Under the pieces are notes generated by a model that was not told where the DNA came from, searched no databases, and saw only the letters and a program-made list of their open reading frames with translations. From Cordylochernes scorpioides (taxonomy: Eukaryota; Arthropoda; Arachnida; Pseudoscorpiones; Chernetidae), in the NCBI GenBank assembly GCA_030710605.1, contig CP092864.1, positions 144,885,114 through 144,949,113 on the forward strand: a stretch of 64,000 bases of DNA, given 5' to 3'. Positions 1,475-61,620 of the stretch are shown here, piece after piece; the stretch's first letter is position 1; the number at the start of each line of letters is the position of its first letter. Both the position numbers and the translations under genes were made by a program.

Positions 1475-1800
1475 ATTAAAAATGGCATATCCTGACCAGG
1501 AGCACATGTGCTTTACAAAAGGCAGAGCGCCATCTGGTGGAACAGAAATCAACTAAACATTGATTTAGCCTGTTCCCTGATATTTGGCCAAACCAATTTC
1601 TTGATAAATCAAGAAAAGCTATCCACGAATGCGTTTCGCGCTTTTAGCGCTCGTCAGCGTGGAGTAGGCTAAACCACTGCGACCAAAAAATATTTTTTGG
1701 TCCCAATGGCTTCCTGAAAAAACAAGAAATGGGTATTTATGGCCAAACTTGCGTAAATACGCTTAGCACATTAAAAAACGAAAGAAAAAAATAAAAGATA
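1475..1800 (-). mobile_element. Hammerhead-bearing retroposon-like element, copy H1
   Basis: Read on the minus strand, this copy has a perfect hairpin GACCAAAAAA/TTTTTTGGTC, then a type I hammerhead (1622-1663), then a downstream part ending in sequence also found at 30940-31025 (GATGGCGCTCTGCC and GCACATGTGCTCCTGGTCAG). A second copy lies at 26150-26480. No ORF is seen. The conserved ends and AT-rich tail suggest a non-autonomous retroelement. Boundaries are approximate. Confidence 0.6.
1622..1663 (-). ncRNA. Type I hammerhead ribozyme (H1)
   Basis: On the minus strand the order is TCCACG, CTGACGA, GCGC, loop TAAAA, GCGC, GAAA, CGCAT, T, CGTGGA. This gives a 6-bp stem I (TCCACG with CGTGGA), the core CUGANGA with N=C, a perfect 4-bp stem II with a 5-nt loop, the GAAA core and a minimal stem III. 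Predicted cleavage falls after the U at 1628. Minimal stem III is known for retroelement hammerheads in animals. All invariant core bases I can check are present. Activity is untested. Confidence 0.75.
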
Positions 1801-1833: not shown

Positions 1834-2239
1834 ATTATAAACAATACTTAAAATTATACCGCATAAGTTTCTTTTCTATGAAAAATCAATATTCATTTTA
1901 AAGAGAAATATTTACTATTTCTAACTTTTTTGAATGAAGTATGAGAGGGTGAAAATATGAAGAGTAATGGCGAACGGGAAAAATAAAAGTGTCCAGGGGC
2001 GGGAATCGAACCCACAACCTTCTGCTTACCGGGCAGGTGCCATGTCCACTAGGCTACCCTGGACATTATTTCTCCGTTCATAAGTAATATTTTTCCCGTT
2101 CGCCATTACTCTTCATATTTTCACCCTCTCATACTTCATTCAAAAAAGTTAGAAATAGTAAATATTTCTCTTTAAAATAAATATTGATTTTTCATAGAAA
2201 AGAAACTTATGCGGTATAATTTTAAGTATTGTTTATAAT
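1834..2239. repeat. Foldback element F2 with tRNA-like cap
   Basis: The arms at about 1834-1990 and 2065-2239 are near-perfect reverse complements over about 165 bp. The loop between them is a 74-nt tRNA-like sequence whose acceptor stem continues the palindrome. The arms are alignable to but diverged from F1 and F3. The arms carry no ORF. A transcript would form a very long duplex ending in a cloverleaf. Confidence 0.8.
1991..2064 (-). tRNA. tRNA-like sequence (tRNA-Arg-related pseudogene) at palindrome centre
   Basis: Read on the minus strand it folds as a cloverleaf. It has a 7-bp acceptor stem (GTCCAGG with CCTGGAC), a 3-bp D stem around TAGTGGACAT, a 4-bp anticodon stem (CTGC with GCAG) with loop CCGGTAA, and a T arm GTGGG-TTCGATT-CCCGC with an intact B box. 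The body resembles tRNA-Arg (GCCTAGTGGA, TTGTGGGTTCGA). The loop reads anticodon GGT, and position 33 is C instead of the invariant U, so a working tRNA is doubtful. Confidence 0.5.
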
Positions 2240-4344: not shown

Positions 4345-4718
4345 TCCAACCATATCAGTCTTCTTCTTTCTTATCTCCACTCAATCATATTAGGGTATCA
4401 AGCTTGTAGTGCTTGAGACTTGAAAACCATCATGACTGGGTGAAGTAGAATGTGTCCGCCTTTGTCAATAAAACTGGGAGCACTACTCAGTGGCAGGCCG
4501 ACTTATCTCCAAAAGAAATGGCCGCCTCTGACATGAGGTACAGATGCCATGTGCAGCTGCTCCTAACATGGAGTACAAACGCTGCTCATCCTGTATCCCT
4601 GGAGCCCTTACAGGGTACTTTAAGCCGTGCCAGCTGAGCCCAGGTTTTTTAGTGAGCTTGTTACTGCTCCCTCTCCTCCTTTTTCTTCCGGGCTTGGGAC
4701 CGGCAAAGGCGGAGTTCA
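4345..4718 (-). mobile_element. SINE-like retroposon, family B
   Basis: About 350-bp element read on the minus strand. It starts CTCCGCCTTTGCCGG and ends GAGTGGAGATAAG followed by AAGAAG repeats. Eight copies occur in the window, and the copy at 61621-61970 is bounded by a 14-bp target duplication. There is no protein. The open frames in it differ between copies and carry no domain. Confidence 0.75.
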
Positions 4719-4911
4719 ACCATATCAGTGAAGACAAGTAACCAAACGAAGCTATGGCATCCTGTGAGTGAAAATTTAAACTGATTTTTATATGAGATTT
4801 CACTAGTTTACTTGAGTATAAAAGTTGTCTCTAAATACTCATTATAATTATCATGGTCTGTATCACGTGTACTTGGAATAAGTTAAAAAATACCTCAAGT
4901 ACATGCTACTA

Positions 4912-12660: not shown

Positions 12661-13197
12661 TTTTTTTTTTCTTATCTAAATACATGTTGGTACAGGCCAT
12701 GATAATCAAATTCTTCTTTCTTACTATTGGGTGAAGTAAAATGCGTCTGCCTTTGTCATTAAGACTGGGAGCATTACTCAGTGGCAGGCTGACTTAGCTC
12801 TAAAAGAAATGGCCGCCTCTGACATGAGGAACAGACTCCACGTACAGCTGCTCCTAACATGGAGTACAAACGCTACTCATCCTCTATCCCTGGATTAGGA
12901 GCCCTTACAGGGTACTATCAGCCGGGCCAGCTGAACCCAGGTTTTTTAGCGATCTTGTTACTGCTCCCATCCTCCTTTTTCATCCGGGCTTGGGACCGGC
13001 AAAGGCGGAGTTCATGATAACCATGGTGGGTAGAAGAAGGCGACTGCTTTTACTGTAAGTGCACCACATGTCTATACATGTGAAAAGCATGGCGACTTTG
13101 CACTTACAAATGTTTCAGAGCCCCGTTTAGTTACTTGCACTCGCTGGTTGGGTTGGACTTTTGCAAGAATCGGGAGTCATTGGAGCATTTTTAGAAA
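12661..13197 (-). mobile_element. 5'-truncated SINE A, itself interrupted
   Basis: Flanked by an 8-bp duplication AGAGATTG (12653-12660 and 13198-13205). Only the body and tail of SINE A are present; the tRNA-like head is missing. The SINE is split at ATGATAATC by the family-B insertion. Confidence 0.75.
12707..13014 (-). mobile_element. SINE-like retroposon, family B (nested)
   Basis: A near-complete B copy inside SINE A, with ATGATAATC to the left and ATGATAACC to the right as its probable target duplication. It fixes the relative age here: MITE N, then SINE A, then B. Confidence 0.75.
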
Positions 13198-18611: not shown

Positions 18612-20847
18612 TACACTCATGGACAAAATTAAGAAAGTGGAAAGTCTTTGATATCACCAGACATCTGTTTTGATCAGACTTCCCTATCTCGTGTGCCTTC
18701 AATATCTTTCAGAGTTATTGTCTGAATCCCGATATACATGCTAAAAGGTACAAATTTCATAAGTTTTGTCCATAAGTGTATCTTTCAGAGTTATTGTCTG
18801 AATCCCGATATATATGGTAAAAGGTACAACTACCTTAAGTTTTCCCATAAGTGTATCTTTCAGAGTTATTGTCTCAATCCCGATATACAGGCTAAAAGGT
18901 ACAAATTCCTTAAGTTTTGTCCATAAGTGTATCTTTCAGAGTTATTGTCTGAATCCCGATATACATGCCAAAAGGTACAACTTTCTCAAGTTTCGTCTAT
19001 GAGTTTATCTTTCTGAGTTATTGTCTGAATCCCGATATACATGCTAAAATGTACAACTTCCTTAAGTTTTGTCCATAAGTGTATCTTTCAGAGTTATTGT
19101 CTGAATCCCGATATACATGCTAAAAGGTACAACTTCCTTAAGTTTTGTTCATGAGTGTATCTTTCAGAGTTATTGTCTAAATCCCGATATACATGCTAAA
19201 AGGTACAACTTCCTTAAGTTTTGTTCATGAGTGTATCTTTCAGAGTTATTGTCTGAATCCCGATATACATGCTGAAAGGTACAAATTCCTTAAGTTTTGT
19301 CCATGAGTGTATCTTTCAGAATTATTGTCTGAATCCCGATATACATGCTAAAAGGTACAAATTCCTTAAGTTTTTTCCATAAGTGTATCTTTCTGGGTTA
19401 TTTTCTGAATCCCGATATACATGCTAAAATGTACAACTTCCTTAGGTTTTGTCCATAAGTGTATCTTTCAGAGTTATTGTCTGAATCCCGATATAAATGC
19501 TAAAAGGTACAACTTCCTTAAGTTTTGTTCATGAATGTATCTCTCAGAGTTATTGTCTTAATCCCGATATATATGCTAAAAGGTACAACTTCCTTAAGTT
19601 TTGTCCATGAGTGATTCTTTCAGAGTTATTGTCTAAATCCCGATATACATGCTAAAAGGTACAACTTCATTAAGTTTTGTCCATGAATGTATCTCTCAGA
19701 GTTATTGTCCGAATCCCGATATACATACTAAAAGGTACAACTTCCTTAAGTTTTGTCCATGAGTGTATATTTCATAGTTATTGTCTAAATACAGTTATAC
19801 ATGCTAAAAGTTACAACTTCCTTAAGTTTTGTCCATGAGTGTATATTTCATAGTTATTGTCTGAATCCCGATATACATGCTAAAAGGTACAACTTCCTTA
19901 AGTTTTGTCCATGAGTGTATCTTTCAGAGTTATTGTCTGAATCCTGATATACATGCTAAAAGGTACAACTTCCTTAAGTTTTGTCCATGAGTATATCTTT
20001 CAGAGTTATTGTCTGAATCCCGATATACATGCTAAAAGGTACAACTTCCTTAAGTTTTGCCCATGAGTATATCTTTCAGAGTTATTGTCTGAATCCCGAT
20101 ATACATGCTAAAAGGTACAACTTCCTTAAGTTTTGTCACTGAGTGTAACTTTCAGAGTTATTGTCTGAATCCAGATATACATGCTAAAAGGTACAACTTC
20201 CTTAAGTTTTGTCCATGAGTGTATATTTCAGAGTTATTGTCTCAATATTGTCCTCACTTCTTTTTTCTAGATTTAATTCATTTTGTCTCCTCTCTAATTG
20301 TAAATACGCTGCTGTATCACCTCATAAGCATAAATAAATACCGATATACATGCTAAAAGGTACAACTTCCTTAAGTTTTGTCCATGAGTGTATATTTCAG
20401 AGTTATTGTCTCAATCCCGATATATATGCTAAAAGGTACAACTTCCTTAAGTTTTGTCCATGAGTATAACTTTCAGAGTTATTGTCTGAATCCCGATATA
20501 CATGTTAAAAGGTACAACTTCCTTAAGTTTTGTCCATGAGTGTATCTTTCAGAGTTATTGTCTGAATCCTGATATACATGCTAAAAGGTACAACTTCCTT
20601 AAGTTTTGTCCATGAGTGTATCTTTCAGAGTTATTGTCTGAATCCCGATATACATGCTAAAAGGTACAACTTCCTTAAGTTTTGTCCATGAATGTATCTC
20701 TCAGAGTTATTTTCTGAATCCCGATATAAATGCTAAAAGGTACAAATTCCTTAAGTTTTGTCCATAAGTGTATCTTTCAGAGTTATTGTCTGAATCCCGA
20801 TATACATGCTAAAAGGTACAACTTCCTTAAGTTTTGTCCATGAGTGA
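18612..20847. repeat. 76-bp satellite, array 2 (about 28 units)
   Basis: Near-perfect 76-bp units: GTGTATCTTTCAGAGTTATT, GTCTGAATCCCGATATACAT, GCTAAAAGGTACAACTTCCT, TAAGTTTTGTCCATGA. A 100-bp unrelated piece interrupts at about 20243-20340. The array begins with the same ACTCATGGACAAAATTAAG end as array 1, so it grew by tandem amplification of a transposon terminus. Short ORFs inside are by-products. Confidence 0.9.
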
Positions 20848-21475: not shown

Positions 21476-22069
21476 TATCTTTTATTAAACGTTTTTCAAG
21501 CTTTCGGGATAACGCCCTACTACAGGATAAATTGAAACAAAATAAAACTTAAATATGCTATGGCAAGTAATATGTACATTATGAAAATTCGAAACTATTT
21601 TAGACGCGTAAAATTATTTTTGAAATCAAACAATTTCTACTATCCTTACTGCAATGGAAAAATTAATGGGAGGTAGTAAGGGCAGTAGAAATTGTTTAAT
21701 ATCAAAAGAATCTTACGTGTCTAAAATAGTTTCGAATTTTCATAACAGATGGCGCGCGAGTGCATCATATGTAAATCATAAAATTTGCATTATATCAGCT
21801 GTGTTTTCAACCTATTTTATAATTGATATATTTACATAATAGAGAAAATTTGGTATTTAACATAGGTAAAATAGGAGCAAATAGTGTCTATGAACTAGAT
21901 TACTCAATTAGATGAACTCAATTATAAAATAGGTTAAAAAACACAGCTGATATTATGTAAATTTATAATGTACATATTATTTGCCATAGCAAAGTTTCAT
22001 TTTGTATTAATTTTCAAGTAGAAGGGCGTTATCCCGAAAGCTCGAAAAAACGTTTAATAATAGATACTT
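21476..22069. repeat. Large palindrome with an inner MITE
   Basis: The outer arms carry TTTCGGGATAACGCCCT and its complement AGGGCGTTATCCCGAAA, plus ACGTTTTTC/GAAAAAACGT. A family-R palindrome (21590-21770) lies inside. CTGTAGTA-GGG-loop-CCC-GAAAGC on the minus strand is again hammerhead-like but lacks the CUGANGA core. Confidence 0.65.
21590..21770. repeat. Palindromic MITE, family R, copy 2
   Basis: GAAAATTCGAAACTATTTTA and its complement TAAAATAGTTTCGAATTTTC flank an inner TTACTGCAATGG/AAGGGCAG hairpin. The flank CAGATGGCGCGCGAGTGCAT matches copy 1. Confidence 0.65.
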
Positions 22070-22260
22070 GTTGCGACCACACTTTGCCTCAGCGAGCGTG
22101 AACTGGGACAAAGCTTCACTACACATGTGGGCAGTAGTGTGGCGGCCTCACTACGCCTCGGCAAGCGCGAGCTGGGAGAACACCTCGCTACTCATGCGCG
22201 GGCGGCATCCGGGACTCTTGCCTCGTGCGTCGTTCGAACAGCAAGGCTTGTTTCCAGCGG
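22070..22260. repeat. GC-rich direct repeat of unknown origin
   Basis: Two diverged units of about 70 bp share the pattern CACACTTTGCCTCAGCGAGC and CACTACGCCTCGGCAAGCGC with the following GAGCTGGGA. GC content is clearly above the surroundings. It may be a piece of an LTR or imported exon. The frame is open on the plus strand (22068-22511) but I see no domain. Confidence 0.4.
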
Positions 22261-22625
22261 CCGTTACTTCTTTCTTCTTTATATATTTCGGGGCTTTGAA
22301 TAATTTATTTTATAAAAATAATTATAATTTTATAAGCGGCCTTTCCACAAGCCACACCACCACGCACGCAACCATCCCACATACTCATCCTTGGAACGTT
22401 TATTATCTAAACTTGTTATTCTATATTTGGATTACATATGTTACACCAGATAGGTATTCTAAAGAAAGTGGAGATTCCAATGGGATATTCAACTTACATG
22501 GCCGAAGTTGAGAGGGAAATGGAAGATCGGTTTGACAGCCATTTCTTCTAGGGCCTTTTCACGCCTGTGGACACACACCTATACATTAGACTTACTGCCA
22601 TGGTTAACAGATCTACTCAAGTAGA

Positions 22626-22783
22626 TGATAAGGTACAATTTGGATTTTTTATAGATTAGAAACACACGATAAATAAGACTAAATCCAAATAAAAGTGTTT
22701 GACGTTTTGGAAATAACATTAATAATGGTAACAGCGTTGTTACCGAAATGTCACAAATTGTTTGTTATTATTATCTTGTGTAG
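22626..22783. mobile_element. MITE family M, copy 1 (degraded)
   Basis: Starts GATAAGGTACAATTTGGA and ends ACCGAAATGTCACAAATTG. Short inverted version of the M family best seen at 54330-54612. Confidence 0.55.
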
Positions 22784-22787
22784 CCAG

Positions 22788-23334
22788 GTAGATATTAATG
22801 GAAATTTTGCTGGAAGGATATTGATCTAAAGAGACAAAGATCGCCTCTCCCGTCAAAATGGTGGACGCTTTTCAGTTTGCCAAAGCTGATGTTGTGGCTT
22901 TGTCACCGACCCGAGCCCGCTAGTTTACGGCGACGGTCAATAGATGGCGTCTAGTTTTGACGTCTAATTTGACGGGAGAGGCGACCTTTGTCTCTTTAGA
23001 TAAATTTCCTTCCGGCAAAATTTCCATCTATATTTTAGCCATAGATTTGGCCCAGCCATTATGCCAGCTAAACACCTCTTTGGCAGATTGTCAAGATTCC
23101 ACTAGATCCCGTGTAAATCTCATGGAATAAAGTCCGCCCTAGACTGACGAGGGCCATTAGCCCGAAACCATGGTTTCTAGGTGGACCATTTTCAGTTTGC
23201 CAAAGTTGTGTTGTAGCTTTGTCACCGACCCGAAACCGCAAGTTTGCGGCAACAGTCAATAGATGGCGTCTAGTTTTGACGTTTATTTTCACGGGAGAGG
23301 CGACCTTTGTCTCTTTAGATTAAGTAGATATTAA
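22788..23334 (+). mobile_element. Retrozyme-like or Penelope-like partial dimer
   Basis: Flanked by an exact 11-bp repeat GTAGATATTAA (22788-22798, 23324-23334). The insert has three parts. The first is an inverted copy (22799-22858) of sequence also present at 22974-23025. A full unit follows, with a hammerhead at its end. Last comes a second partial unit: GTGGAC...TTTTCAGTTTGCCAAAG at 22861 recurs at 23181, an offset of 320 bp. Tandem units, 5' inversion and a hammerhead at the unit junction are features of Penelope-like elements and animal retrozymes. No ORF, so non-autonomous. Confidence 0.7.
23138..23181 (+). ncRNA. Type I hammerhead ribozyme (unit-junction copy)
   Basis: Order on the plus strand: CCTAGA, CTGACGA, GGGC, loop CATTA, GCCC, GAAA, CCATGG, T, T, TCTAGG. 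Stem I is 6 bp (CCTAGA with TCTAGG), stem II 4 bp (GGGC with GCCC) and stem III 3 bp including the A15.1-U16.1 pair (ACC with GGU). All core positions of CUGANGA and GAA match. Predicted cleavage follows U23175. It is located exactly at the junction of two 320-bp units, so self-cleavage of a longer tandem RNA would give monomer-length products. Activity untested. Confidence 0.82.
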
Positions 23335-23469
23335 ATTACCTTTATATAAAAAGGCTCCCCAAGAAACAAGTTCATTATAAACGGTTTCTTGGCTTCTTAA
23401 TCAAACTACTTCGGGGGGTTGAATGTTAATTTATAATTTTATAACGATTTCATTGGGTTTAATTATCTT
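23335..23469. other. Spacer
   Basis: Nothing recognised. Confidence 0.4.
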
Positions 23470-23765
23470 TTTTTTATCCCTAATACACGTGGTACAGGCC
23501 ATGCTAATCATGGTGGGTAGAAGAAGGCGACTGCTTTTATTATAAGTTTACCACATGTCTACACATGTGAAAAGCAATTCGACTTTTCATTTACAAATCT
23601 TACAGAGCCCCGTTTGGTTACTTGCATTCGTTGGTGGGGATGGACTTTTGCAAGAATCGAAGGCCTTTGAAGATTTTTTTAATCAGAAAAAAGTTCCCGA
23701 TGCATGAATTGAACCCGGGTCATAGCGGTCGAAAACCAACGGTTTAGACCATACTTCCACCGAGT
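23470..23765 (-). mobile_element. tRNA-derived SINE, family A
   Basis: Minus-strand, near full length. The head with B box lies near 23705-23765. Confidence 0.8.
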
Positions 23766-23767
23766 CC

Positions 23768-23930
23768 CGGAACGGACTGTCTGGTGTCACATCTGTGGAC
23801 AGAAAAGACGCAGAAATAGGTCTCCGGAATTGTGGCCGTGTGGATCAACCAGAAAGAGGTGTCAAGGAAGATCCTTCATGTGGTAGACAAAGAAGGCAAG
23901 TCAATCAACTGTATATAATTATTAATCCTC
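23768..23930. other. Coding-like stretch of unknown identity
   Basis: Two plus-strand frames stay open for about 40-50 codons. One begins RTVWCHICGQKRRRNRSPE, with a CxxC pair and a basic run. There are no clear splice sites on both sides and no second Cys/His pair. I cannot assign a family. It may be an exon relic or chance. Confidence 0.25.
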
Positions 23931-23951
23931 TCAAAACCTTTGTATAAAGTA

Positions 23952-24128
23952 CAGTTAAACCTGTCTATAGCACCCCCTCTAAATAGCGCCTCCCTCTCTA
24001 TAGCGCCCGACTTTAAATAAGTAGTACGATGCGATTTACCTTAAAAGTGACCTGTCTATAGCACCCAATCTCTATAGCATCCTATTTTGGTGAGTCCCAA
24101 GAAAGGGCGCTATAGACAGGTTTATCTG
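23952..24128. mobile_element. Pogo-type MITE, family Q, copy 1
   Basis: TA-flanked element with ends CAGTTAAACCTGTCTATAGC and GCTATAGACAGGTTTATCTG. Non-coding, about 177 bp. A second copy is at 46214-46390. Confidence 0.75.
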
Positions 24129-24539
24129 TATATCGAACTAAGCTGTATCCATAACGAACCCATAATATTTTCCTAGAAACCTTATTCACAAACAACGACC
24201 GTCAAAAAGCGTCATAACAATATGTTACAATATATAGAAGACCTGACTATTATAAATTTTGTATTATGATTCTTTTATATATTTGAGGTATTCTAAAAAA
24301 TCATCATTTCTTCTTTCAAAAGAGTATAAAAGGCAGAGAAAAAAAAAACCTTAAAGAACAAAAAAGGTTGGACTCAATATTTGGTGAAGAAGGTTCCAGT
24401 GTGAAAGGACATAGCCTGGGGACAGGATTGTTAATTAAGGTAATTAGATGGACCAATCAATAGAGTTAGGAGTGAATGTGGACCTTGACTGTTCGATCGA
24501 ACTGGGGTGTGGTGGATCTTAGAAGATTCTGTGGAGTTT
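24129..24539. other. Spacer with a TATA-like box
   Basis: GAGTATAAAAGGCAG at about 24324 resembles a core promoter, but no downstream ORF or exon is recognised. The rest is unassigned. Confidence 0.25.
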
Positions 24540-25980
24540 GAGAAAACAAATATCGATATAAAAACATCTAATTAGCTTATTGTAATCTTCAGTGAAAGAA
24601 GAGCGGTGAAGCATTTCTGTGAAGTACTCAAGAATTTCAATTAAAATCTCTGGAAATTGGCATCGTTTCACTTCCTATAGAAGTGTAAACATGAAACAAT
24701 GATTTTTTTTTTGCTTTTCCCTACAGGCCACTATAATCATGGAGGGTAGAAGTAGGCAACTGCTTTTACTGTAAGTGCACCACATGTCTACACATGTGAA
24801 AAGCAGTTCGACTTTGCACTTGAGAAAACAAACATCTATATAGCTTATTGTAATCTTCAGTGAAAGAAGAGCGGTGAAGCATTTCTGTGAAGTACTCAAG
24901 AATTTCAATTAAAATCTCTGGAAATTGGCATCGTTTCACTTCCTATAGAAATGTAAACATGAAACAATGATTTTTTTGCTTATCCCTACAGGCCACTATA
25001 ATCATGGAGGGTAGAAGTAGGCAACTGCTTTTACTGTAAGTGCACCACATGTCTACACATGTGAAAAGCAGTTCGACTTTGCACTTGAGAAAACAAACAT
25101 TGATATAAAAACATCTAATTAACTTATTGTAATCTTCAGTGAAAGAAGAGCGGTGAAGCATTTCTGTGAACTACTCACGAATTTGGGATTAAAATATCTA
25201 GAAATTGGCATCGTTTCACTTCCTATAGAAATATAAACATGAAACAATGATTTCTTTTTGCTTATCCCTAGTACATATGGTACAGGCCATGATAATCAAG
25301 GTGGGTAGAATTGGCGACTGCTTTTACTGTAAGTGCACCACATGTCTACACATGTGAAAAGCAGTTCGACTTTGCACTTGAGAAAACAAACATTGATATA
25401 AAAACATCTAATTAACTTATTGTAATCTTCAGTGAAAGAAGAGCGGTGAAGCATTTCTGTGAACTACTCACGAATTTGGGATTAAAATATCTAGAAATTG
25501 GCATAGTTTCACTTCCTATAGAAATATAAACATGAAACAATGATATCTTTTTGCTTATCCCTAGTACATATGGTACAGGCCATGATAATCAAGGTGGGTA
25601 GAATTGGCGACTGCTTTTACTGTAAGTGCACCACATGTCTACACATGTGAAAAGCAGTTCGACTTTGCACTTGAGAAAACAAACATTGATATAAAAACAT
25701 CTAATTAACTTATTGTAATCTTCAGTGAAAGAAGAGCGGTGAAGCATTTCTGTGAACTACTCACGAATTTGGGATTAAAATATCTAGAAATTGGCATCGT
25801 TTCACTTCCTATAGAAATATAAACATGAAACAATGATTTATTTTTGCTTATCCCTAGTACATATGGTACAGGGCCATGATAATCATGATGGGTAGAGTAG
25901 GTGACTGCTTTTACTGTAAGTGCACAACCTGTCTACATATGTGACAAGCAGTTCGACTTTGCACTTACAATGAAACAACG
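24540..25980. repeat. Tandem array, about 265-295-bp units with SINE A 3' ends
   Basis: Five units start near 24540, 24823, 25087, 25380 and 25672. Each has GAGAAAACAAA, AGTGAAAGAAGAGCGGTGAA and CATCGTTTCACTTCC-like sequence joined to a minus-strand SINE A tail/body fragment (CCACATGTCTACACATGTG). High identity among the later units points to recent expansion. Confidence 0.8.
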
Positions 25981-26149
25981 ATAAATAACATAAGTTGAAT
26001 AATCTCCTGGAGAGGTATATTATCAAAAATACAAAATCGTGAGACGAAGAGGCCATTTTGTCCTTTTGATAATGATACCAGGCTGAATCAAAAGTTCATT
26101 CCCAAAAATAAGATTTTAATACACATTAAATAATAAAGAAAACAAAAAA

Positions 26150-26480
26150 GGCATATCGTGGGCAGAAGCACATGTGCTTTTAAATAGCAGAGCGCCTGAC
26201 ATTTTTTTTTTCTATTATTTTTTCACATGTTGAGCGTATTTCGCAAGTTTGTCTTAAATATCCATTTCTTGGTTTCTCAAGAAGCCTCTGGGACCAAAAA
26301 GATTTTTGGTCGCAGTGGTAAAGCCTACTACACGCTGACGAGGGTCAACAGCCCGAAAACGTTCGTGAATGGCTTTTTTAAAAGACTTTCGATGGAAATC
26401 TTGGCAGAAGCACGTCAGATCCATGTCAGTATCTACAATTATTACCAGCTGTGGGTCACAGATTTCATAGGGAAGAAGCT
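26150..26480 (+). mobile_element. Hammerhead-bearing retroposon-like element, copy H2
   Basis: Homologous to 1475-1800. The hairpin GACCAAAAAG/ATTTTTGGTC (26292-26311) is followed by the hammerhead at 26331-26367. The left piece 26150-26205 is an inverted copy of the element's other end (GCACATGTGC, GCAGAGCGCC), a 5' inversion like that in the element at 22788. The open frame through it (26227-26634) is not conserved in H1 and is rejected as a gene. Confidence 0.6.
26331..26367 (+). ncRNA. Type I hammerhead ribozyme (H2)
   Basis: Order: CACG, CTGACGA, GGGT, loop CAACA, GCCC, GAAA, ACG, TT, CGTG. Stem I is 4 bp and stem II 4 bp with one terminal G-U. The core is intact and stem III minimal. 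Compared with H1, stem II changed from GCGC/GCGC to GGGT/GCCC with pairing retained. Cleavage is predicted after U26363. Confidence 0.72.
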
Positions 26481-30789: not shown

Positions 30790-31024
30790 CATATAGACAG
30801 TAGAACCTTCTTTTTAGCTGACGCCCTGCTATTGGACACCTCTCCATAAAGGACAGTTTTAATTTGTTTAAATTACCATTTTTACAAAAAAAAAATCAAG
30901 AAAATTGGGTTGTCCAAATATCAAGGAACATGTTAAATCAATGTTTAGTTGATTTCTTTTACACTAGATGGCGCTCTGCCATCTAAAAAGCACATGTGCT
31001 CCTGGTCAGGATATGCTTTCATTA

Positions 31025-31074
<50 letters not shown>

Positions 31075-33802: not shown

Positions 33803-33997
33803 ACCTATGGGAATACCCAGGGTTTAAATTTGCTTATTTCACTTCAGGGTAGCTAGCTTTAACCTCTCATTGCTATTTGTAAACAGTATTAGAATATGGA
33901 CACTAAGGTATTTTCAGTGAAACTATGTATAAACTTAAAACATCATTTACATATGCAGAGCAAATAGAAGACTGTAAAAATGGAGATCACGTATAAA

Positions 33998-34350
33998 CTC
34001 CGCCTTTGCCGGTCCCAAGCCCGGATGAAAAAGGAGGAGGGGGTGCAGTAACAAGCTCGTTAAAAAAACTAGGCTCAGCTGGCTCGGCTGATAGTACCCT
34101 GTAAGGGCTCCTAATCCAGGGATACAGGATGATCAGCGTTTGTAATCCATGTTAAGAGCGGCTGCACATGGCGTCTGTTCTTCATGTCAGAGGCGGTCAT
34201 TTCTTTTGGAGCTAAGTCGGCCTGCCACTGAGTAGTGCTCCCAGTCTTAATGACAAAGGCATTATACTTCACCCAGTCATGATGGTTGTCAAATCTCAAG
34301 CCTTACAAGTTTGATACCCTAATATGATTGAGTGGAGATAAGAAAAAAAG
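33998..34350 (+). mobile_element. SINE-like retroposon, family B
   Basis: Complete, from ACTCCGCCTTTGCCGG to GAGTGGAGATAAGAAAAAAAG. Confidence 0.8.
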
Positions 34351-34844: not shown

Positions 34845-37800
34845 GTGACCATCCCTTGCATCTCATCTAGGGACCTTCCTATAGTTTTCTCGACCCCTTC
34901 AATCAAGATAAACCCAGACATGAATAGATCTTACAGAAACTGTCACAACACCCAACTCACTCCAGACCATATATACCCAGCCATCCTTGCATTCATCTAG
35001 GGACCTTCCTATAGTTTTCTCGACCCCTTCAATCAAGATAAACCCAGACATGAATAGATCTTACAGAAACTGTCACAACACCCAACTCACTCCAGACCAT
35101 ATATACACAGCCATCCTTGCATCTCATCTAGGGACCTTCCTCTAGTTTTCTCGACCCTTCAATCAAGATAAACCCAGACATGAATAGATCTTACAGAAAC
35201 TGTCACAACACCCAACTCACTCCAGACCATATAACCCAGCCATCCTTGCATCTCATCTAGGGACCTTCCTCTAGTTTTCTCGACCCCTTCAATCAAGATA
35301 AACCCAGACATGAATAGATCTTACAGAAACTGTCACAACACCCAACTCACTCCAGACCATATATACCCAGCCATCCTTGCATCTCATCTAGGGACCTTCC
35401 TATAGTTTTCTCGACCCCTTCAATCAAGATAAACCCAGACATGAATAGATCTTACAGAAACTGTCACAACACCCAACTCACTCCAGACCATATATACCCA
35501 GCCATCCTTGCATCTCATCTAGGGACCTTCCTATAGTTTTCTCGACCCCTTCAATCAAGATAAACCCAGACATGAATAGATCTTACAGAAACTGTCACAA
35601 CACCCAACTCACTCCAGACCATATATACCCAGCCATCCTTGCATCTCATCTAGGGACCTTCCTATAGTTTCTCGACCCCGTCAATCAAGATAAACCCAGA
35701 CATGAATAGATCTTACAGAAACTGTCACAACACCCAACTCACTCCAGACCATATATACCCAGCCATCCTTGCATCTCATCTAGGGACCTTCCTATAGTTT
35801 TCTCGACCCCTTCAATCAAGATAAACCCAGACATGAATAGATCTTACAGAAACTGTCACAACACCCAACCACTCCAGACCATATATACCCAGCCATCCTT
35901 GCATCTCATCTAGGACCTTCCTAAAGTTTTCTCGACCCCTTCAATCAAGATAAACCCAGAGAATGAATAGATCTTACAGAAACCTGTCACAACACCCAAC
36001 TCACTCCAGACATATATACCCAGCCATCCTTGCATCTCATCTAGGGACCTTCCTATAGTTTTCTCGACCCCTTCAATCAAGATAAACCCAGACATGAATA
36101 GATCTTACAGAAACTGTCACAACACCCAATCACTCCAGACCATATATACCCAGGCCATCCTTGCATCTCATCTTGGGACCTTCCTATAGTTTTCTCGACC
36201 CCTTCAATCAAGATAAACCCAGACATGAATAGATCTTACAGAAACTGTCACAACACAACCCAACTCACTCCAGACCATATATACCCAGCCATCCTTGCAT
36301 CTCATCTAGGGACCCTTCCTATAGTTTTCTCGACCCCCTTCAATCAAGATAAACCCAGACATGAATAGATCTTACAGAAACTGTCACAACACCCAACTCA
36401 CTCCAGACCATATATACCCAAGCCATCCTTGCATCTCATCTAGGGACCTTCCTATAGTATTCTCGACCCCTTCAATCAAGATAAACCCAGACATGGAATA
36501 GATCTTACAGAAACTGTCACAACACCCCAACTCACACAAGACCATATATACCAGCCATCCTTGCATCTCATCTGGGACCTTCCTATAGTTTTCTCGACCC
36601 CCTTCAATCAAGATAACCCAGACATGAATAGATCTTACAGAAACTGTCACAACCACCCAACCACTCCAGACCATATAATACCCAGCCATCCTTGCATCTC
36701 ATCTAGGACCTTCCTATAGTTTTCTCGACCCCCTTCAATCAAGCCATCCTTGCATCTCATCTAGGGACCTTCCTATAGTTTTCTCGACCCCTTCAATCAA
36801 GATAAACCCAGACATGAATAGATCTTACAGAAACTGTCACAACACCCAACTCACTCCAGACCATATATACCCAGCCATCCTTGCATCTCATCTAGGGACC
36901 TTCCTATAGTTTTCTCGACCCCTTCAATCAAGATAAACCCAGACATGAATAGATCTTACAGAAACTGTCACAACACCCAACTCACTCCAGACCATATATA
37001 CCCAGCCATCCTTGCATCTCATCTAGGGACCTTCCTATAGTTTTTCTCGACCCCTTCAATCAAGATAAACCCAGACATGAATAGATCTTACAGAAACTGT
37101 CACAACACCCAACTCACTCCAGACCATATATACCCAGCATCCTTGCATCTCATCTAGGGACCTTCCTTAGTTTTCTCGACCCCTTCAATCAAGATAAACC
37201 CAGACATGAATAGATCTTACAGAAACTGTCACAACACCCAACTCACTCCCGACCCATATATCACCCCCAGCCATCCTTGCATCTCATCTAGGGACCCTTC
37301 CTATAGTTTTCTCGACCCCTTCAATCAAGATAAACCCAGACATGAATAGATCTTACAGAAACTGTCACAACACCCAACTCACTCCAGACCATATATACCC
37401 AGCCACTCCTTGCATCTCATCTAGGGACCTTCCTAAAGTTTTCTCGACCCCTTCAATCAAGATAAACCCAGACATGAATAGATCTTACAGAAACTGTCAC
37501 AACACCCAACTCACTCCAGACCATATATACCCAGCCATCCTTGCATCTCATCTAGGGACCTTCCTATAGTTTTCTCGACCCCCTTCAATCAAGATAAACC
37601 CAGGACATGAATAGATCTTACAGAAACCTGTCACACACCCAACTCACTCCAGACCATATATACCCAGCCATCCCTTGCATCTCATCTAGGGACCTTCTAT
37701 AGTTTTCTCGACCCCTTCAATCAAGATAAACCCAGACATGAATAGATCTTACAGAAACTGTCACAACACCCAACTCACTCCAGACCATATATACCCAGCC

Positions 37801-40800
37801 ATCCTTGCATCTCATCTAGGGACCTTCCTATAGTTTTCTCGACCCCTTCAATCAAGATAAACCCAGACATGAATAGATCTTACAGAAACTGTCACAACAC
37901 CCAACTCACCCAGACCATATATACCCAGCCATCCTTGCATCTCATCTAGGGACCTTCCTATAGTTTTCTCGACCCCTTCAATCAAGATAAACCCAGACAT
38001 GAATAGATCTTACAGAAACTGTCACAACACCCAACTCACTCCAGACCATATATACCCAGCCATCCTTGCATCTCATCTAGGGACCTTCCTATAGTTTTCT
38101 CGACCCCTTCAATCAAGATAAACCCAGACATGAATAGATCTTACAGAAACTGTCACAACACCCAACTCACTCCAGACCATATATACCCAGCCATCCTTGC
38201 ATCTCATCTAGGGACCTTCCTATAGTTTTCTCGACCCCTTCAATCAAGATAAACCCAGACATGAATAGATCTTACAGAAACTGTCACAACACCCAACTCA
38301 CTCCACCATATATACCCAGCCATCCTTGCATCTCATCTAGGGACCTTCCTATAGTTTTCTCGACCCCTTCAATCAAGATAAACCCAGACATGAATAGATC
38401 TTACAGAAACTGTCACACACCCAACTCACTCCAGACCATATATACCCAGCCATCCTTGCATCTCATCTAGGGACCTTCCTATAGTTTTCTCGACCCCTTC
38501 AATCAAGATAAACCCAGACATGAATAATCTTACAGAAACTGTCACAACACCCAACTCACTCCAGACCATATATACCCAGCCATCCTTGCATCTCATCTAG
38601 GGACCTTCCTATAGTTTTCTCGACCCCTTCAATCAAGATAAACCCAGACATGAATAGATCTTACAGAAACTGTCACAACACCCAACTCACTCCACCAGAC
38701 CATATATACCCAGCCATCCTTGCATCTCATCTAGGGACCTTCCTATAGTTTTCTCGACCCCTTCAATCAAGATAAACCCAGACATGAATAGATCTACAGA
38801 AACTGTCACAAACACCAACTCACTCCAGACCATATATACCCAGCCATCCTTGCATCTCATCTAGGGGACCTTCCTATAGTTTTCTCGACCCCTTCAATCA
38901 AGATAAACCCAGACATGAATAGATCTTACAGAAACTGTCACAACACCCCAACTCACTCCAGACCATATATACCCAGCCCATCCTTGCATCTCATCTAGGG
39001 ACCTTCCTATAGTTTTCTCGACCCCTTCAATCAAGATAAACCCAGACATGAATAGATCTTACAGAAACTGTCACAACACCCAACTCACTCCAGACCATAT
39101 AACCCAGCCATCCTTGCATCTCATCCTAGGGACCTTCCTATAGTTTTCCTCGACCCCTTCAATCAAGATAAAACCCAGACATGAATAGATCTTACAGAAA
39201 CTGTCACAACACCCAACTCACTCCAGACCATATATACCCAGCCATCCTTGCATCTCATCTAGGGGACCTTCCTATAGTTTTCTCGACCCCTTCAATCAAG
39301 ATAAACCCAGACATGAATAGATCTTACAGAAACTGTCACAACAACCCAACTCACTCCAGACCATATATACCCAGCCATCCTTGCATCTCATCTAGGGACC
39401 TTCCTATAGTTTTTCTCGACCCCTTCAATCAAGATAAACCCAGACATGAATAGATCTTACAGAAACTGTCACAACACCCAACTCACTCCAGACCATATAT
39501 ACCCAGCCATCCTTGCATCTCATCTAGGGACCTTCCTATAGTTTTCTCGACCCCTTCAATCAAGATAAACCCAGACATGAATAGATCTTACAGAAACTGT
39601 CACAACACCCAACTCACTCCAGACCATATATACCCAGCCATCTTGCATCTCATCTAGGGGACCTTCCTATAGTTTTCTCGACCCCCTTCAATCAAGATAA
39701 ACCCAGACATGAATAGATCTTACAGAAACTGTCACAACACTCCAACTCACTCCAGACCATATATACCCAGCCAATCCCTTGCATCTCATCTAGGGACCTT
39801 CCTATAGTTTTCTCGACCCCTTTCAATCAAGATAACCCAGACATGAATAGATCTTACAGAAACTGTCACAACACCCAACTCACTCCAGACCATATATACC
39901 CAGCCATCCTTGCATCTCATCTAGGGACCTTCCTATAGTTTTCTCGACCCCTTCAATCAAGATAAACCCAGACATGAATTGATCTTACAGAAACTGTCAC
40001 AACACCCAACTCACTCCAGACCATATATACCCAGCCATCCTTGCATCTCATCTAGGGACCTTCCTAAGTTTTCTCGACCCCTTCAATCAAGATAAACCCA
40101 GACATGAATAGATCTTACAGAAACTGTCACAACACCCAACTCACTCCAGACCATATATACCCAGCCATCCTTGGCATCTCATCTAGGGACCTTCCTATAG
40201 TTTTCTCGACCCCTTCAATCAAGATAAACCCAGACATGAATAGATCTTACAGAAACTGTCACAACACCCCAACTCACTCCAGACCCATATATACCCAGCC
40301 ATCCTTTGCATCTCATCTAGGGACCTTCCTAAAGTTTTCTCGACCCCTTCAATCAAGATAAACCCAGGACATGAATAGATCTTACAGAAATTGTCACAAA
40401 CACCCAACTCACTCCAGACCATATATACCCAGCCATCCTTGCATCTCATCTAGGGACCTTCCTATAGTTTTCTCGACCCCTTCAATCAAGATAAACCCAG
40501 ACATGAATAGATCTTACAGAAACTGTCCACAACACCCAACTCACTCCAGACCATATATACCCAGCCATCCTTTGCATCTCATCTAGGGACCTTCCTCTAG
40601 TTTTCTCGACCCCTTCAATCAAGATAAACCCAGACATGAATAGATCTTACAGAAACTGTCACAACACCCAACTCACTCCAGACCATATATACCCAGCCAT
40701 CCTTGCATCTCATCTAGGGACCTTCCTATAGTTTTCTCGACCCCTTCAATCAAGATAAACCCAGACATGAATAGATCTTACAGAAACTGTCACAACACCC

Positions 40801-43590
40801 AACTCACTCCAGACCATATATACCCAGCCATCCTTGCATCTCATCTAGGGACCTTCCTATAGTTTTCTCGACCCCTTCAATCAAGATAAACCCAGACATG
40901 AATAGATCTTACAGAAACTGTCACAACACCCAACTCACTCCAGACCATATATACCCAGCCATCCTTGCATCTCATCTAGGGACCTTCCTATAGTTTTCTC
41001 GACCCCTTCAATCAAGATAAACCCAGACATGAATAGATCTTACAGAAACTGTCACAACACCCAACTCACTCCAGACCATATATACCCAGCCATCCTTGCA
41101 TCTCATCTAGGGACCTTCCTCTAGTTTTCTCGACCCCTTCAATCAAGATAAACCCAGACATGAATAGATCTTACAGAAACTGTCACAACACCCAACTCAC
41201 TCCAGACCATATATACCCAGCCATCCTTGCATCTCATCTAGGGACCTTCCTATATTTTTCTCGACCCCTTCAATCAAGATAAACCCAGACATGAATAGAT
41301 CTTACAGAAACTGTCACAACACCCAACTCACTCCAGACCATATATACCCAGCCATCCTTGCATCTCATCTAGGGACCTTCCTATAGTTTTCTCGACCCCT
41401 TCAATCAAGATAAACCCAGACATGAATAGATCTTACAGAAACTGTCACAACACCCAACTCACTCCAGACCATATATACCCAGCCATCCTTGCATCTCATC
41501 TAGGGACCTTCCTATAGTTTTCTCGACCCCTTCAATCAAGATAAACCCAGACATGAATAGATCTTACAGAAACTGTCACAACACCCAACTCACTCCAGAC
41601 CATATATACCCAGCCATCCTTGCATCTCATCTAGGGACCTTCCTATAGTTTTCTCGACCCCTTCAATCAAGATAAACCCAGACATGAATAGATCTTACAG
41701 AAACTGTCACAACACCCAACTCACTCCAGACCATATATACCCAGCCATCCTTGCATCTCATCTAGGGACCTTCCTATAGTTTTCTCGACCCCTTCAATCA
41801 AGATAAACCCAGACATGAATCGATCTTACAGAAACTGTCACAACACCCAACTCACTCCAGACCATATATACCCAGCCATCCTTGCATCTCATCTAGGGAC
41901 CTTCCTAAAGTTTTCTCGACCCCTTCAATCAAGATAAACCCAGACATGAATAGATCTTACAGAAATTGTCACAACACCCAACTCACTCCAGACCATATAT
42001 ACCCAGCCATCCTTGCATCTCATCTAGGGACCTTCCTATAGTTTTCTCGACCCCTTCAATCAAGATAAACCCAGACATGAATAGATCTTACAGAAACTGT
42101 CACAACACCCAACTCACTCCAGACCATATATACCCAGCCATCCTTGCATCTCATCTAGGGACCTTCCTCTAGTTTTCTCGACCCCTTCAATCAAGATAAA
42201 CCCAGACATGAATAGATCTTACAGAAACTGTCACAACACCCAACTCACTCCAGACCATATATACCCAGCCATCCTTGCATCTCATCTAGGGACCTTCCTA
42301 TAGTTTTCTCGACCCCTTCAATCAAGATAAACCCAGACATGAATAGATCTTACAGAAACTGTCACAACACCCAACTCACTCCAGACCATATATACCCAGC
42401 CATCCTTGCATCTCATCTAGGGACCTTCCTATAGTTTTCTCGACCCCTTCAATCAAGATAAACCCAGACATGAATAGATCTTACAGAAACTGTCACAACA
42501 CCCAACTCACTCCAGACCATATATACCCAGCCATCCTTGCATCTCATCTAGGGACCTTCCTATAGTTTTCTCGACCCCTTCAATCAAGATAAACCCAGAC
42601 ATGAATAGATCTTACAGAAACTGTCACAACACCCAACTCACTCCAGACCATATATACCCAGCCATCCTTGCATCTCATCTAGGGACCTTCCTATAGTTTT
42701 CTCGACCCCTTCAATCAAGATAAACCCAGACATGAATAGATCTTACAGAAACTGTCACAACACCCAACTCACTCCAGACCATATATACCCAGCCATCCTT
42801 GCATCTCATCTAGGGACCTTCCTCTAGTTTTCTCGACCCCTTCAATCAAGATAAACCCAGACATGAATAGATCTTACAGAAACTGTCACAACACCCAACT
42901 CACTCCAGACCATATATAACCAGCCATCCTTGCATCTCATCTAGGGACCTTCCTATAGTTTTCTCGACCCCTTCAATCAAGATAAACCCAGACATGAATA
43001 GATCTTACAGAAACTGTCACAACACCCAACTCACTCCAGACCATATATACCCAGCCATCCTTGCATCTCATCTAGGGACCTTCCTATAGTTTTCTCGACC
43101 CCTTCAATCAAGATAAACCCAGACATGAATAGATCTTACAGAAACTGTCACAACACCCAACTCACTCCAGACCATATATACCCAGCCATCCTTGCATCTC
43201 ATCTAGGGACCTTCCTATAGTTTTCTCGACCCCTTCAATCAAGATAAACCCAGACATGAATAGATCTTACAGAAACTGTCACAACACCCAACTCACTCCA
43301 GACCATATATACCCAGCCATCCTTGCATCTCATCTAGGGACCTTCCTATAGTTTTCTCGACCCCTTCAATCAAGATAAACCCAGACATGAATAGATCTTA
43401 CAGAAACTGTCACAACACCCAACTCACTCCAGACCATATATACCCAGCCATCCTTGCATCTCATCTAGGGACCTTCCTATAGTTTTCTTGACCCCTTCAA
43501 TCAAGATAAACCCAGACATGAATAGATCTTACAGAAACTGTCACAACACCCAACTCACTCCAGACCATATATACCCAGCCATCCTTGCAG
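34845..43590. repeat. 131-bp satellite, about 67 tandem units
   Basis: Unit contains CATCTAGGGACCTTCCTATA, GTTTTCTCGACCCCTTCAAT, CAAGATAAACCCAGACATGA, ATAGATCTTACAGAAACTGT, CACAACACCCAACTCACTCC and AGACCATATATACCCAGCCA. Spacing of GGACCTTCCT between units is 130-131 bp. The unit is not a multiple of three, so the many short ORFs (for example those starting MNRSYRNCHNTQ) are by-products. Units from about 35880 to 40580 have many one-base insertions and deletions, while 40600-43590 are nearly identical. Confidence 0.95.
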
Positions 43591-46390: not shown

Positions 46391-46551
46391 TATAAAGATT
46401 AAGATAATCAATATATAAACCACATGTTACATTATAGAAATTAGAAGTTGTTCAGGACCACTTACCTTATGGCTCAAGGCATCCTATGGCTTAGGAAAGG
46501 TACCGAGATACGGGTTTTAACCTGCCTATCTTTAGATTTACCCGTCCTGTC

Positions 46552-47938
46552 AAGAGCTGGGCACACAATAGATAGAATGTCAAAGGCTGGGCATATAATA
46601 GACAAAATGTCAAGGGCTGGGCATATAATAGATAGAATGTCAAGGGCTGTGCATACAATAGACAGAATGTCAAGACCTGTGCATACAATAGACAGAATAT
46701 CAAAGGCTGTGCATACAATAGACAAAATGTCAAAGGCTGTGCATACAATAGACAGAATGTCAAGAGCTGTGCATACAATAGACAGAATGTCAAGGGCTGT
46801 GCATACAATAGACAGAATGTCAAGGCCTGTGCATACAATAGACAGAATGTCAAAGGCTGTGCATACAATAGACAGAATGCCAAGAGCTGTGCATACAATT
46901 GACAGAATGTCAAGGGCTGTGCATACAATATTCAGAATGTCAAGGCCTGTGCATACAATAGACAGAATGTCAAAGGCTGAGCATACAATAGACAGAATGT
47001 CAAGGTCTGTGCATACAATAGACAGAATGTCAAAGGCTGTGCATACAATAGACAGAATGCCAAGGGCTGTGCATACAATAGACAGAATGTCTAGGGCTGT
47101 GCATACAATAGACAGAATATCAAGGGCTGTTCATACAAAAGACAGAATGTCAAGACCTGTGCATACAATAGACAGAATATCAAGAGCTGTTCATACAATA
47201 GACAGAATGTCAAGGTCTGTGCATACAATAGACAGAATGTCAAGAGCTGTGCATACAATAGACAGAATGTCAAGGGCTGTGCATACAATAGACAGAATGT
47301 CAAGGCCTGTGCATACAATAGACAGAATGTCAAAGGCTGTGCATACAATAGACAGAATGTCAAGGTCTGTGCATACAATAGACAGAATGTCAAGAGCTGT
47401 GCATACAATAGACAGAATGTCAAGAGCTGTGCATACAATAGACAGAATGCCAGGAGCTGTGAATACAATAGACAGAATTTCAAGGGCTGTGCATACAATA
47501 TTCAGAATGTCAAGGCCTGTGCATACAATAGACAGAATGTCAAGGGCTGTGCATACAATAGACAGAACGTCAAGAGCTGTGCATACAATAGACAGAATGT
47601 CAAGGTCTGTGCATACAATAGAGAGAATGTCAAGAGCTATGCATACAATAGACAGAATGCCAAGAGCTGTGAATACAATAGACAGAATGTCAAGGGCTGT
47701 GCATACAATATTCAGAATGTCAAGGCCTGTGCATACAATAGACAGAATGTCAAGGCCTGTGCATACAATAGACAGAATGTCAAGGCCTGTGCATACAATA
47801 GACAGAATGTCAAGGCCTGTGCATACAATAGACAGAATGTCAAGGCCTGTGCATACAATAGACAGAATGTCAAGAGCTGTGAATACAATAGACAGAATGT
47901 CAAAGCCAGTGTATACAATTGACAGAATGTCAAATTAT
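46552..47938. repeat. 30-bp minisatellite, about 46 units
   Basis: Unit GTGCATACAATAGACAGAAT plus GTCAAGGGCT, with recurrent variants at the GGG/GGC/GAG/AGG position. Thirty is divisible by three and units lack stops in several frames. Long ORFs therefore exist on both strands (plus 46448-48034, with repeat HTIDRMSRAV). I see no sign of a real gene. Confidence 0.9.
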
Positions 47939-49911: not shown

Positions 49912-50296
49912 CGCCCAAAACCTAACCTAACTTAACCATACCTAACCTAGCCTAATCTTACCCAACCTAACCTAACCTAGCCTAACCTAACTTAACCTAG
50001 CCTAACCTTATCTAACCTAACCTAACCTAACTTAACCTAGCCTAACCTAACCTAACCTTACCTAACCTAACCTTACCTAACCTAGCCTAATCTTACCCAA
50101 CCTAGCCAAACTTACCTAACCTAACTTAACCTAGCCTAACCTTACCTAACTTAACCTAGCCTAACCTTACCTAACCTAACCTAACCTAACTTAACCTAGC
50201 CTAACCTTACCTTACCTAACCTAACCTAGCCTAACCTAACTTAACCTAGCCTAACCTAGCCTAACCTTACCTTACCTAACCTTCCCTAACCTAACC
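49912..50296. repeat. Interstitial (CCTAA)n telomere-like tract
   Basis: Nearly 400 bp of CCTAA repeats with frequent CTTAA, CCTAG and CCTTA variants. TTAGG is the common arthropod telomere motif. The tract lies within the intron between PDZ exons C and D and not at a chromosome end, and its degeneracy indicates age. Confidence 0.85.
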
Positions 50297-54329: not shown

Positions 54330-54612
54330 TAGATTCTAAACACAAGGTAATAAGACCAAATCCAAATAAATAAATAGTGTATGACGTTTCGGTAACAGCG
54401 TTGTTACCATCTTCAGATAAAAGTATTTAATGAGAAATTTTACCACAACATGTTTTAAATAGTTACTGTTATCAATGCTGTGGTAAGATTTCTCATTCAG
54501 TACTTTTGTCTGAAGATGGTAACAACGCTGTTACCGAAACGTCACACACTATTTATTTGGATTTGGTCTTATTACCTTGTGTTCATAATCTATAATCCAA
54601 ATTGTGCGATAA
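54330..54612. mobile_element. MITE family M, copy 6 (best example)
   Basis: Palindrome with ends near AAACACAAGGTAATAAGACC and ATAATCTATAATCCAAATTG. Each arm carries a hammerhead-like hairpin: on the plus strand at 54510-54543, CTGAAGA, T, GGTAAC, loop, GTTACC, GAAA, CGTC. The core matches CUGANGA and GAAA and has a GUC site, but one extra T sits between core and stem II, and stem I is only 3 bp (TGT with ACA). Confidence 0.75.
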
Positions 54613-54964: not shown

Positions 54965-55253
54965 TAAAAATGGTAATAAGACCAAATCCAAATAAATAAA
55001 TAGTGTGTGACGTTTCGGTAACAGCATTGTTACCATCTTCAGACAAAAGTACTGAATGAGAAATTTTACTACAGCATGTTTTAAATAGCTACTGTTATCA
55101 ATTTAAAACATGCTGTGGTAAAATTTCTCATTCAGTACTTTTGTCTGAAGATGGTAACAACACTGTTACCGAAACGTCATACACTATTTATTTATTTGGA
55201 TTTGGTCTTATTACCTTGTTTTATAATCTATAATCCAAATTGTGCCTTATCAA
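54965..55253. mobile_element. MITE family M, copy 7
   Basis: Complete inverted pair with hammerhead-like hairpins facing outward (plus-strand arm CTGAAGATGGTAACAACACT-GTTACC-GAAAC near 55147). Confidence 0.75.
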
Positions 55254-55477: not shown

Positions 55478-55727
55478 AAATACAAGAAAACAAGACCTAA
55501 TCCAAATAATTTATTAATGTGTGACGTTTCGGCAACAACATTGTCACCATCATCAGACAAAAGAATAAAATGATTGATGAAATTTGATGAAAAATTGTTT
55601 TTTTTTTCTTTTGTCTGATGATGGTGATAATGCTGTTACCGAAAAGTCACACACTATTAAATTATTTGGATTAGGTCTTTTTTTCTTGTATTATCATCTA
55701 TAATATAAATTGTACTTTATCATATAC
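55478..55727. mobile_element. MITE family M, copy 8
   Basis: AATAAGACCTAATCCAAATAA subtype arms. Plus-strand arm CTGATGATGGTGATAATGCT-GTTACCGAAAAG. Confidence 0.7.
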
Positions 55728-55944: not shown

Positions 55945-56395
55945 ACATAGTAATAAAAGAAAATAAGACCTAATCCAAGTAATTTATTAGTGTGTGACGT
56001 TTCAGCAGCAACATTGTCACCATCATCAGACAAAAGAATAATTCAGAAAAAATATCTAAGCAAGTTCTTAAATAGTTCTGTTATCAAGTGTTTAGATAAC
56101 AGATAAGGAAAAATAGTTTTTCAAGTCAACTTGAAATATTCTTCTTAGAATTAAAAGTGGATTTAAAAAAAATATATAATTAAAGGCATATCTGTAAATA
56201 TTATTTATATTGTTTATCTTGTTTAAACACTTGCTAACAGTACTATTTAAGAACTTGCTGTGACATTTTTTTCTCAATTATTATTTTGTCTGATGATGGT
56301 AACAATGTTGTTGCCGAAATGTCACACACTATTAAATTATTTGGATTAGGTCTTCTTTTCTTGTATTATAATCTATAATCCAAATTGTGCTTTAT
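55945..56395. mobile_element. MITE family M, copy 9 (long interior)
   Basis: Same arms with an added inner palindrome carrying AAACACTTGATAACAG-type sequence (56085-56255). A related interior is at 56990-57290. Confidence 0.7.
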
Positions 56396-61606: not shown

Positions 61607-61620
61607 ACTAAGAAACACAA

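Follow-up and report, generated by a model that had tools for sequence, protein, structure and literature searches.

A 525-bp insert at positions 22799-23323 of the window (the whole 64-kb stretch of DNA that we analysed) is, to judge from its sequence, very probably a partial-dimer insertion of a retrozyme of the metazoan non-LTR type. As for how it got there, the best explanation overall is a partial-dimer retrozyme insertion with Penelope-type placement, which we consider probable. The insert is bounded by exact 11-bp direct repeats (GTAGATATTAA), and most of the testable features of metazoan non-LTR retrozymes fit it.

The insert consists of an inverted leading piece followed by a direct part of 1.45 head-to-tail units of 320 nt (Table 1). 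The two homologous direct blocks (22860-23004 and 23180-23323) have 89.7% identity over 145 columns, with a spacing of 319/320. Unit 1 and unit 2 differ at 14 of 142 columns (7 transitions, 6 transversions, and 1 gap), and 2 of the transitions are at CpG. This divergence might seem to prove that the template was a heterogeneous multimer, but it is not decisive because the changes could postdate the insertion. The inverted piece matches the unit at 91% over 66 nt if the overlap at its edge is included (22792-22857 against 22968-23033), and its core has 5 differences in 60 columns. Its outer (left) end corresponds to 23026/23027 in unit 1 and the right end of the insert to 23001; that is, the inverted piece reaches 25-26 nt further 3' in the unit. 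The right end of the insert carries neither poly(A) nor a simple-repeat tail, and the origin of the last 3 nt of unit 2 is uncertain.

As a control for the target-site duplication, we exhaustively compared pairs of sites 525 bp apart (with a slack of +-4) at 32,229 positions of the window, excluding the insert and the main tandem arrays. Exact matches of at least 8 bp occurred at 52 of these positions and matches of at least 9 bp at 4; none was 11 bp or longer. Parts of both flanks match other repeats, but among the 14 best matches per flank in the window, none spans both flanks as an empty target site would. A sequence-only reading of this DNA had described the exact 11-bp flanking repeats, the 320-bp offset between two homologous blocks, and the inverted leading piece, and all three hold up. 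It had also given the element as 22788-23334; we confirm an insert within that span, at 22799-23323, and the end at 23334 takes in the right duplication.

Table 1. Features of the retrozyme insert, of the second hammerhead family, and of inverted repeats that resemble the hammerhead core. Positions are those of the window.
Feature	Position	Strand	Basis or remark
Left target-site duplication, GTAGATATTAA	22788..22798	.	Sequence and control
Inverted leading piece, 59 bp	22799..22857	-	Reverse complement of the unit sequence corresponding to 22968-23026
Unit 1, 316 nt	22860..23175	+	Starts 4 nt downstream of the cut-site-equivalent position; ends at the cut site
Type I hammerhead	23132..23186	+	Predicted cut 23175/23176; H17 is T23175
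Stem Ib, GUCC/GGAC	23132-35/23183-86	+	By eye; beyond an asymmetric internal loop, GC/U
Stem I, CCUAGA/UCUAGG	23138-43/23176-81	+	Sequence
Hammerhead core, CTGACGA	23144-50	+	Sequence
Stem II, GGGC/GCCC, with CAUUA loop	23151-54/23160-63	+	Sequence
Hammerhead core, GAA	23164-66	+	Sequence
Helix III palindrome, ACCATGGT	23167-74	+	Sequence
Unit 2, 3'-truncated	23176..23323	+	Clear homology to unit 1 up to 23320, 145 nt past the cut
Right target-site duplication, GTAGATATTAA	23324..23334	.	Sequence and control
Second family, copy A	1478..1794	-	Hammerhead 1617-1670; AT-rich ends uncertain
Second family, copy B, inverted leading piece	26144..26196	-	83% to copy A over 54 columns
Second family, copy B, direct piece	26202..26377	+	Hammerhead 26320-26376, helix III decayed
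Second family, fragment C	30895..31038	+	Without hammerhead; 86% to copy A over 144 columns
Core-mimic inverted repeats	54387-54416, 54510-54539, 55013-55042, 55145-55174	-, +, -, +	Pattern search
Further core-mimic inverted repeats	55527-55556, 55615-55644, 56000-56029, 56290-56319	-, +, -, +	Pattern search

At the junction of the two units lies a putative type I hammerhead. (Position names such as H17 follow the usual hammerhead numbering.) As RNA, the helix III palindrome (ACCAUGGU) would form two pairs and a tetraloop, followed by a U and then the predicted cut. By both a descriptor search and a covariance model, this hammerhead is well beyond chance. Our strict descriptor (stem I of at least 6 bp, stem II of at least 4 bp, and helix III of at least 2 bp) matches the site and has 0 matches in 8000 simulated windows, which were first-order Markov sequences with the dinucleotide make-up of the real window. 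A looser descriptor (4 bp for stem I and 3 bp for stem II) had 31 matches in the 8000 simulated windows and 4 in a separate run of 1000, and the loosest had 67 in the 8000. (Simple pattern counts are raised by inverted-repeat elements with arms such as CTGATGATGGTNACAA...CCGAAA, which mimic part of the hammerhead core.)

A check by covariance model, which the earlier reading had suggested, gave a split answer. Rfam has no hammerhead match at 23132-23186 up to E = 1 (searching 21500-24800) or up to E = 5 (searching the whole window). In contrast, we obtained a match with a covariance model that was built from the other two hammerheads in the window (copies A and B, discussed below), with the tested site left out. 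The match has 28.9 bits and E = 3.3e-5, by a short and rough calibration, and it is the model's only further match in the window up to E = 5. Against our reading, the local minimum-energy fold (-20.6 kcal/mol) is more stable than the hammerhead (-14.9 kcal/mol), in a comparison of secondary structure only, with tertiary contacts outside the model.

We found no reading frame of at least 110 aa in 22799-23323; the minus strand has one stop-to-stop frame of 83 aa (23071-23319). Outside three satellite stretches, the window has 101 stop-to-stop frames that reach 70 aa, and we compared 30 of them to Pfam. None of the 30 matched a reverse transcriptase (RT) or GIY-YIG domain, and the sole match was a weak one to a Tc3-type transposase (E 0.01, 16.5 bits, with a cut-off of 31.5). 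Nor did we find a second copy of this retrozyme family within the 64-kb window. Patterns for the family had 0 matches in viral contigs (5 patterns) and in prokaryote genomes (2 patterns), which are collections without eukaryotes.

The locus itself has only one hammerhead. Because unit 1 begins 4 nt beyond the cut-site position, no hammerhead precedes it; unit 2 breaks off about 145 nt after the cut. With one hammerhead, there is a single predicted cut, and no 320-nt monomer or circle would arise from this locus alone. The sequence-only reading was right, then, about a retrozyme-like element that lacks coding capacity and has a hammerhead at the junction of 320-nt units, and about the core bases and three stems at 23138-23181 (the outer stem Ib is our addition). 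Its claim that RNA from the locus would be processed to monomers of about 320 nt is not supported. As its sequence presents it, the locus is a fossil of an insertion; in our model, monomers and circles could come solely from multi-unit source copies with at least two hammerheads. We also folded the predicted 320-nt circle. Its minimum energy has z = -3.2 (1 of 300 shuffles was as low), and its paired fraction is 61.9%, compared to a mean of 59.6% for the shuffles. The hammerhead does not form in the predicted minimum-energy circle. The paired fraction, close to that of the shuffles and below the "above 70%" in a passage of PMC4918200, speaks against our reading.

What could have placed a partial dimer in this site? 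By analogy to known insertions, the most likely agent is a Penelope-like reverse transcriptase/endonuclease, and we rate this as somewhat better than an even chance. In passages of PMC3846280, a Penelope insert has direct pLTRs and, next to them on the 5' side, a shorter pLTR in inverted orientation; the duplication is 9 bp long, and one inverted pLTR may carry a tail of 31 bp. (Other Penelope copies in that account have 8- or 10-bp duplications or none, and solo pLTRs occur.) A Penelope protein cuts and extends both strands and starts at internal RNA sites, and the tail of 30-40 bp is the interval between the two start sites (PMC11167929). Inverted pLTRs and short 3' extensions appear as peculiarities of Penelope in passages of PMC8969392, which also state that metazoan retrozymes may rely on Penelope-like elements. 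PMC7229834 names LINEs or Penelope-like elements as the mover of metazoan retrozymes, with a preference for Penelope-like elements, which resemble retrozymes in their type I hammerheads and tandem copies and are found with them in the same genomes. In the literature that we examined, then, Penelope mobilisation of metazoan retrozymes is a proposal. The anatomy of our insert, which is that of one insertion with clean ends, is suggestive of Penelope-like insertions more than of twin priming by LINEs, because it has an internal right end without poly(A), an offset inverted piece, and a short duplication.

We propose that the insertion may have arisen as follows. A multi-unit source locus would be transcribed, and hammerheads would cut the RNA into 320-nt units, which could be ligated to circles; some of the RNA would stay multimeric. 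The enzyme would make cuts 11 bp apart in the two target strands and begin reverse transcription inside the RNA, about 145 nt past the ribozyme cut. One cDNA would span 1.45 units, running through an uncut hammerhead and ending within 4 nt of a cut 5' end. The cDNA of the opposite strand would begin 25-26 nt further 3', at the position of the Penelope "tail", and extend for about 59 nt. The two cDNAs would then be joined head to head and repaired. Of all this, the DNA anatomy and a hammerhead (by sequence and covariance) are shown directly, and we infer cleavage, circles, the identity of the enzyme, and the nature of the template.

In this scheme, the template was presumably a linear multimer, partly processed and cut at its 5' end, rather than a circle, because the direct cDNA runs through one uncut hammerhead and halts 4 nt short of the next cut position. 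On a circle, the ligated junction would have been crossed once and yet have caused a stop the second time, so a linear template is simpler. As a broader and more tentative idea, which we hold at somewhat less than even confidence, metazoan retrozymes may be inserted by Penelope-type machinery with two internal, opposite-strand starts about 145 nt past the cut, on a partly cut linear multimer; the unit would have kept the Penelope start-and-tail signal and lost just the gene. We also considered a hairpin at the start/tail region that would parallel the Anolis stem loop, but it is weak (-0.5 kcal/mol for the tail) and we dropped it.

Alternatively, the retrozyme could have been inserted by a LINE (such as an RTE or L1-like element). 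Twin priming produces 5' inversions and could account for the inverted leading piece. A passage of PMC4918200 likens 15-bp duplications at hammerhead repeats of Nematostella to LINE mobilisation, and the window contains repeats with a twister-like 5' end of the RTE kind (as in passages of PMC7761336), so LINE machinery has probably been active here. We nevertheless consider insertion by a LINE unlikely. Not only does the right end lack a poly(A) or simple-repeat tail, but the inverted piece duplicates a region of the direct copy instead of continuing upstream of it. Furthermore, in unit coordinates its outer end is 25-26 nt past the right end. If such ends were random over 320 nt, simple arithmetic gives about 1 in 8 for an end that is 0-40 nt beyond.

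It is less likely still that the insert is a fragment of an autonomous Penelope-like element, with pLTR copies that bear a hammerhead and no open reading frame. The insertion anatomy would be alike, solo pLTRs are on record (passages of PMC3846280), and Penelope hammerheads are of type I and lie near the pLTR/ORF border (PMC11167929). But in the hammerhead of the insert, helix III can form two pairs around a palindromic tetraloop, and stem I has two parts separated by an internal loop, while passages of PMC7761336 describe Penelope hammerheads as minimal variants without helix III or loop-loop contacts. Also, the units are joined directly at 320 nt, with no reading frame between them. (A complete autonomous element was rejected, as the 525-bp insert has neither the room nor an RT plus GIY-YIG frame.) We consider it highly improbable that the hammerhead arose by chance in a repeat of the satellite or MITE kind. 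In favour of this, satellites and palindromic repeats abound in the window, and Rfam has no match at the site. Yet the window has three hammerheads by the loosest descriptor, a number that 0 of the 8000 simulated windows contained, although two of the three are within copies of one family. The covariance match (E 3.3e-5) is across families, and the predicted cut falls right at the unit junction. A retrozyme placed by Penelope-type machinery remains our preferred reading.

The other two hammerheads belong to a second family, which agrees in part, by sequence, with a Penelope-type insertion anatomy. Copies A and B are 80% identical over 181 columns. The predicted cut in copy A is between 1628 and 1627, its helix III has a one-pair form with a tetraloop, and it has a sub-threshold match to the Rfam family HH9 (1608-1673 on the minus strand, 23.1 bits with a gathering threshold of 52, E 0.3). 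Between A and B, stem II has one compensatory and one wobble change; shuffles equal this in 241 of 500 cases, so in a comparison of two sequences, the changes do not stand out from chance. The clear alignment of A to fragment C breaks near GATATGC, 143 nt past the cut in A (compared to 145 nt in the reported insert), but the ends of A and C are blurred because AT-rich similarity continues beyond GATATGC. Copy B, like the reported insert, has an inverted leading piece, which is possibly about 30 nt longer than tabulated (a T-rich match with E 1e-4 in a two-sequence comparison). There is no clear target duplication around copy B, and its right end, 14 nt past the cut, is unexplained.

Both hammerhead families have the 8-mer AGATGGCG about 86-93 nt past the cut. 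We rejected this as a sign of kinship because AGATGGCG occurs 12 times in the window: at 5600, 9060, 21747, 22942, 23261, and 30966 on the plus strand, and at 1535, 2625, 5828, 5915, 9108, and 13596 on the minus strand, in differing sequence contexts. The 8-mer resembles a CTCF-type core.

The window holds various other repeats and genes. Four matches to twister-P1 (RF03160) lie at 33991-34045 (+), 12963-13017 (-), 4667-4721 (-), and 61614-61668 (+), with 30-42 bits (below the gathering threshold of 67.2). They sit at the start (5') of a dispersed repeat that is about 360 bp long. Of the seven other long matches to the copy at 33996, four start within 3 nt of 33996, next to the expected twister cut. 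A passage of PMC7761336 mentions RTE elements with a truncated twister at the 5' end, and this repeat is probably of that type. There is a tRNA-Thr gene (1989-2064, minus strand) between the 152-nt arms of a 99% inverted repeat (1834-2239), and these arms have relatives elsewhere in the window. Tandem arrays include a long satellite with a 131-bp unit (34849-43589), arrays with units of 76 bp (18703-20846) and 30 bp (46548-47933), and others. A degenerate AACCT array (49919-50296) has 75.8 copies with 78% matches; AACCT is a rotation of the complement of TTAGG, the arthropod telomere repeat. Finally, a 415-aa stop-to-stop frame (57308-58552, plus strand) has CCHC-like knuckles near its end, by eye, and we liken it to the first protein of a retrotransposon; it has no Pfam match up to E 0.01.

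The insertion adds suggestive evidence on what mobilises retrozymes. Its scar (an inverted copy, an offset end, and a short duplication) could be counted over thousands of copies in any genome with retrozymes. If the ends on both strands fall together in one internal region, then the question of the mover would be answerable largely by sequence.

Passages of PMC7229834 (Cervera and de la Pena 2020) describe metazoan non-LTR retrozymes in Acropora, Mytilus, and axolotl, with self-paired RNAs of 170-400 nt, GC below 50%, and, when present, duplications of more than 4 bp. Our insert is like these in its head-to-tail units of 320 nt with 46.9% GC, its exact 11-bp duplication, and its lack of coding capacity. 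It also shares the type I hammerhead, which here has a helix III and a two-part stem I. Together with the repeat content of the window, a retrozyme of this type suggests an animal host. It differs in having 1.45 units and a single hammerhead, whereas the coral arrays in those passages range from dimers to 62-mers. It also differs in its inverted leading piece with an offset end; the word "inverted" does not appear in the main text of PMC7229834.

The hammerhead repeats of newt and axolotl, of 330 and 350 bp in passages of PMC7229834, are similar in unit size and in their short helix III. Specifically, the two-pair helix III with a tetraloop in our insert is the form of HHR_Amex2 and of invertebrates in the same source. 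Those repeats reach about 120,000 copies in tandem repeats, whereas here we have single short insertions.

In comparison to Penelope-like elements, the insert has no RT or GIY-YIG frame, a fuller hammerhead, and a 320-bp unit. The published tails (30-40 bp, or about 31 bp) slightly exceed its offset of 25-26 nt, and its duplication is 11 bp instead of the 8, 9, or 10 bp in passages of PMC3846280. What the insert shares with these elements is direct repeats with a shorter inverted repeat on the 5' side, a short duplication and, if our reading is correct, a start of reverse transcription at an internal site downstream of the hammerhead.
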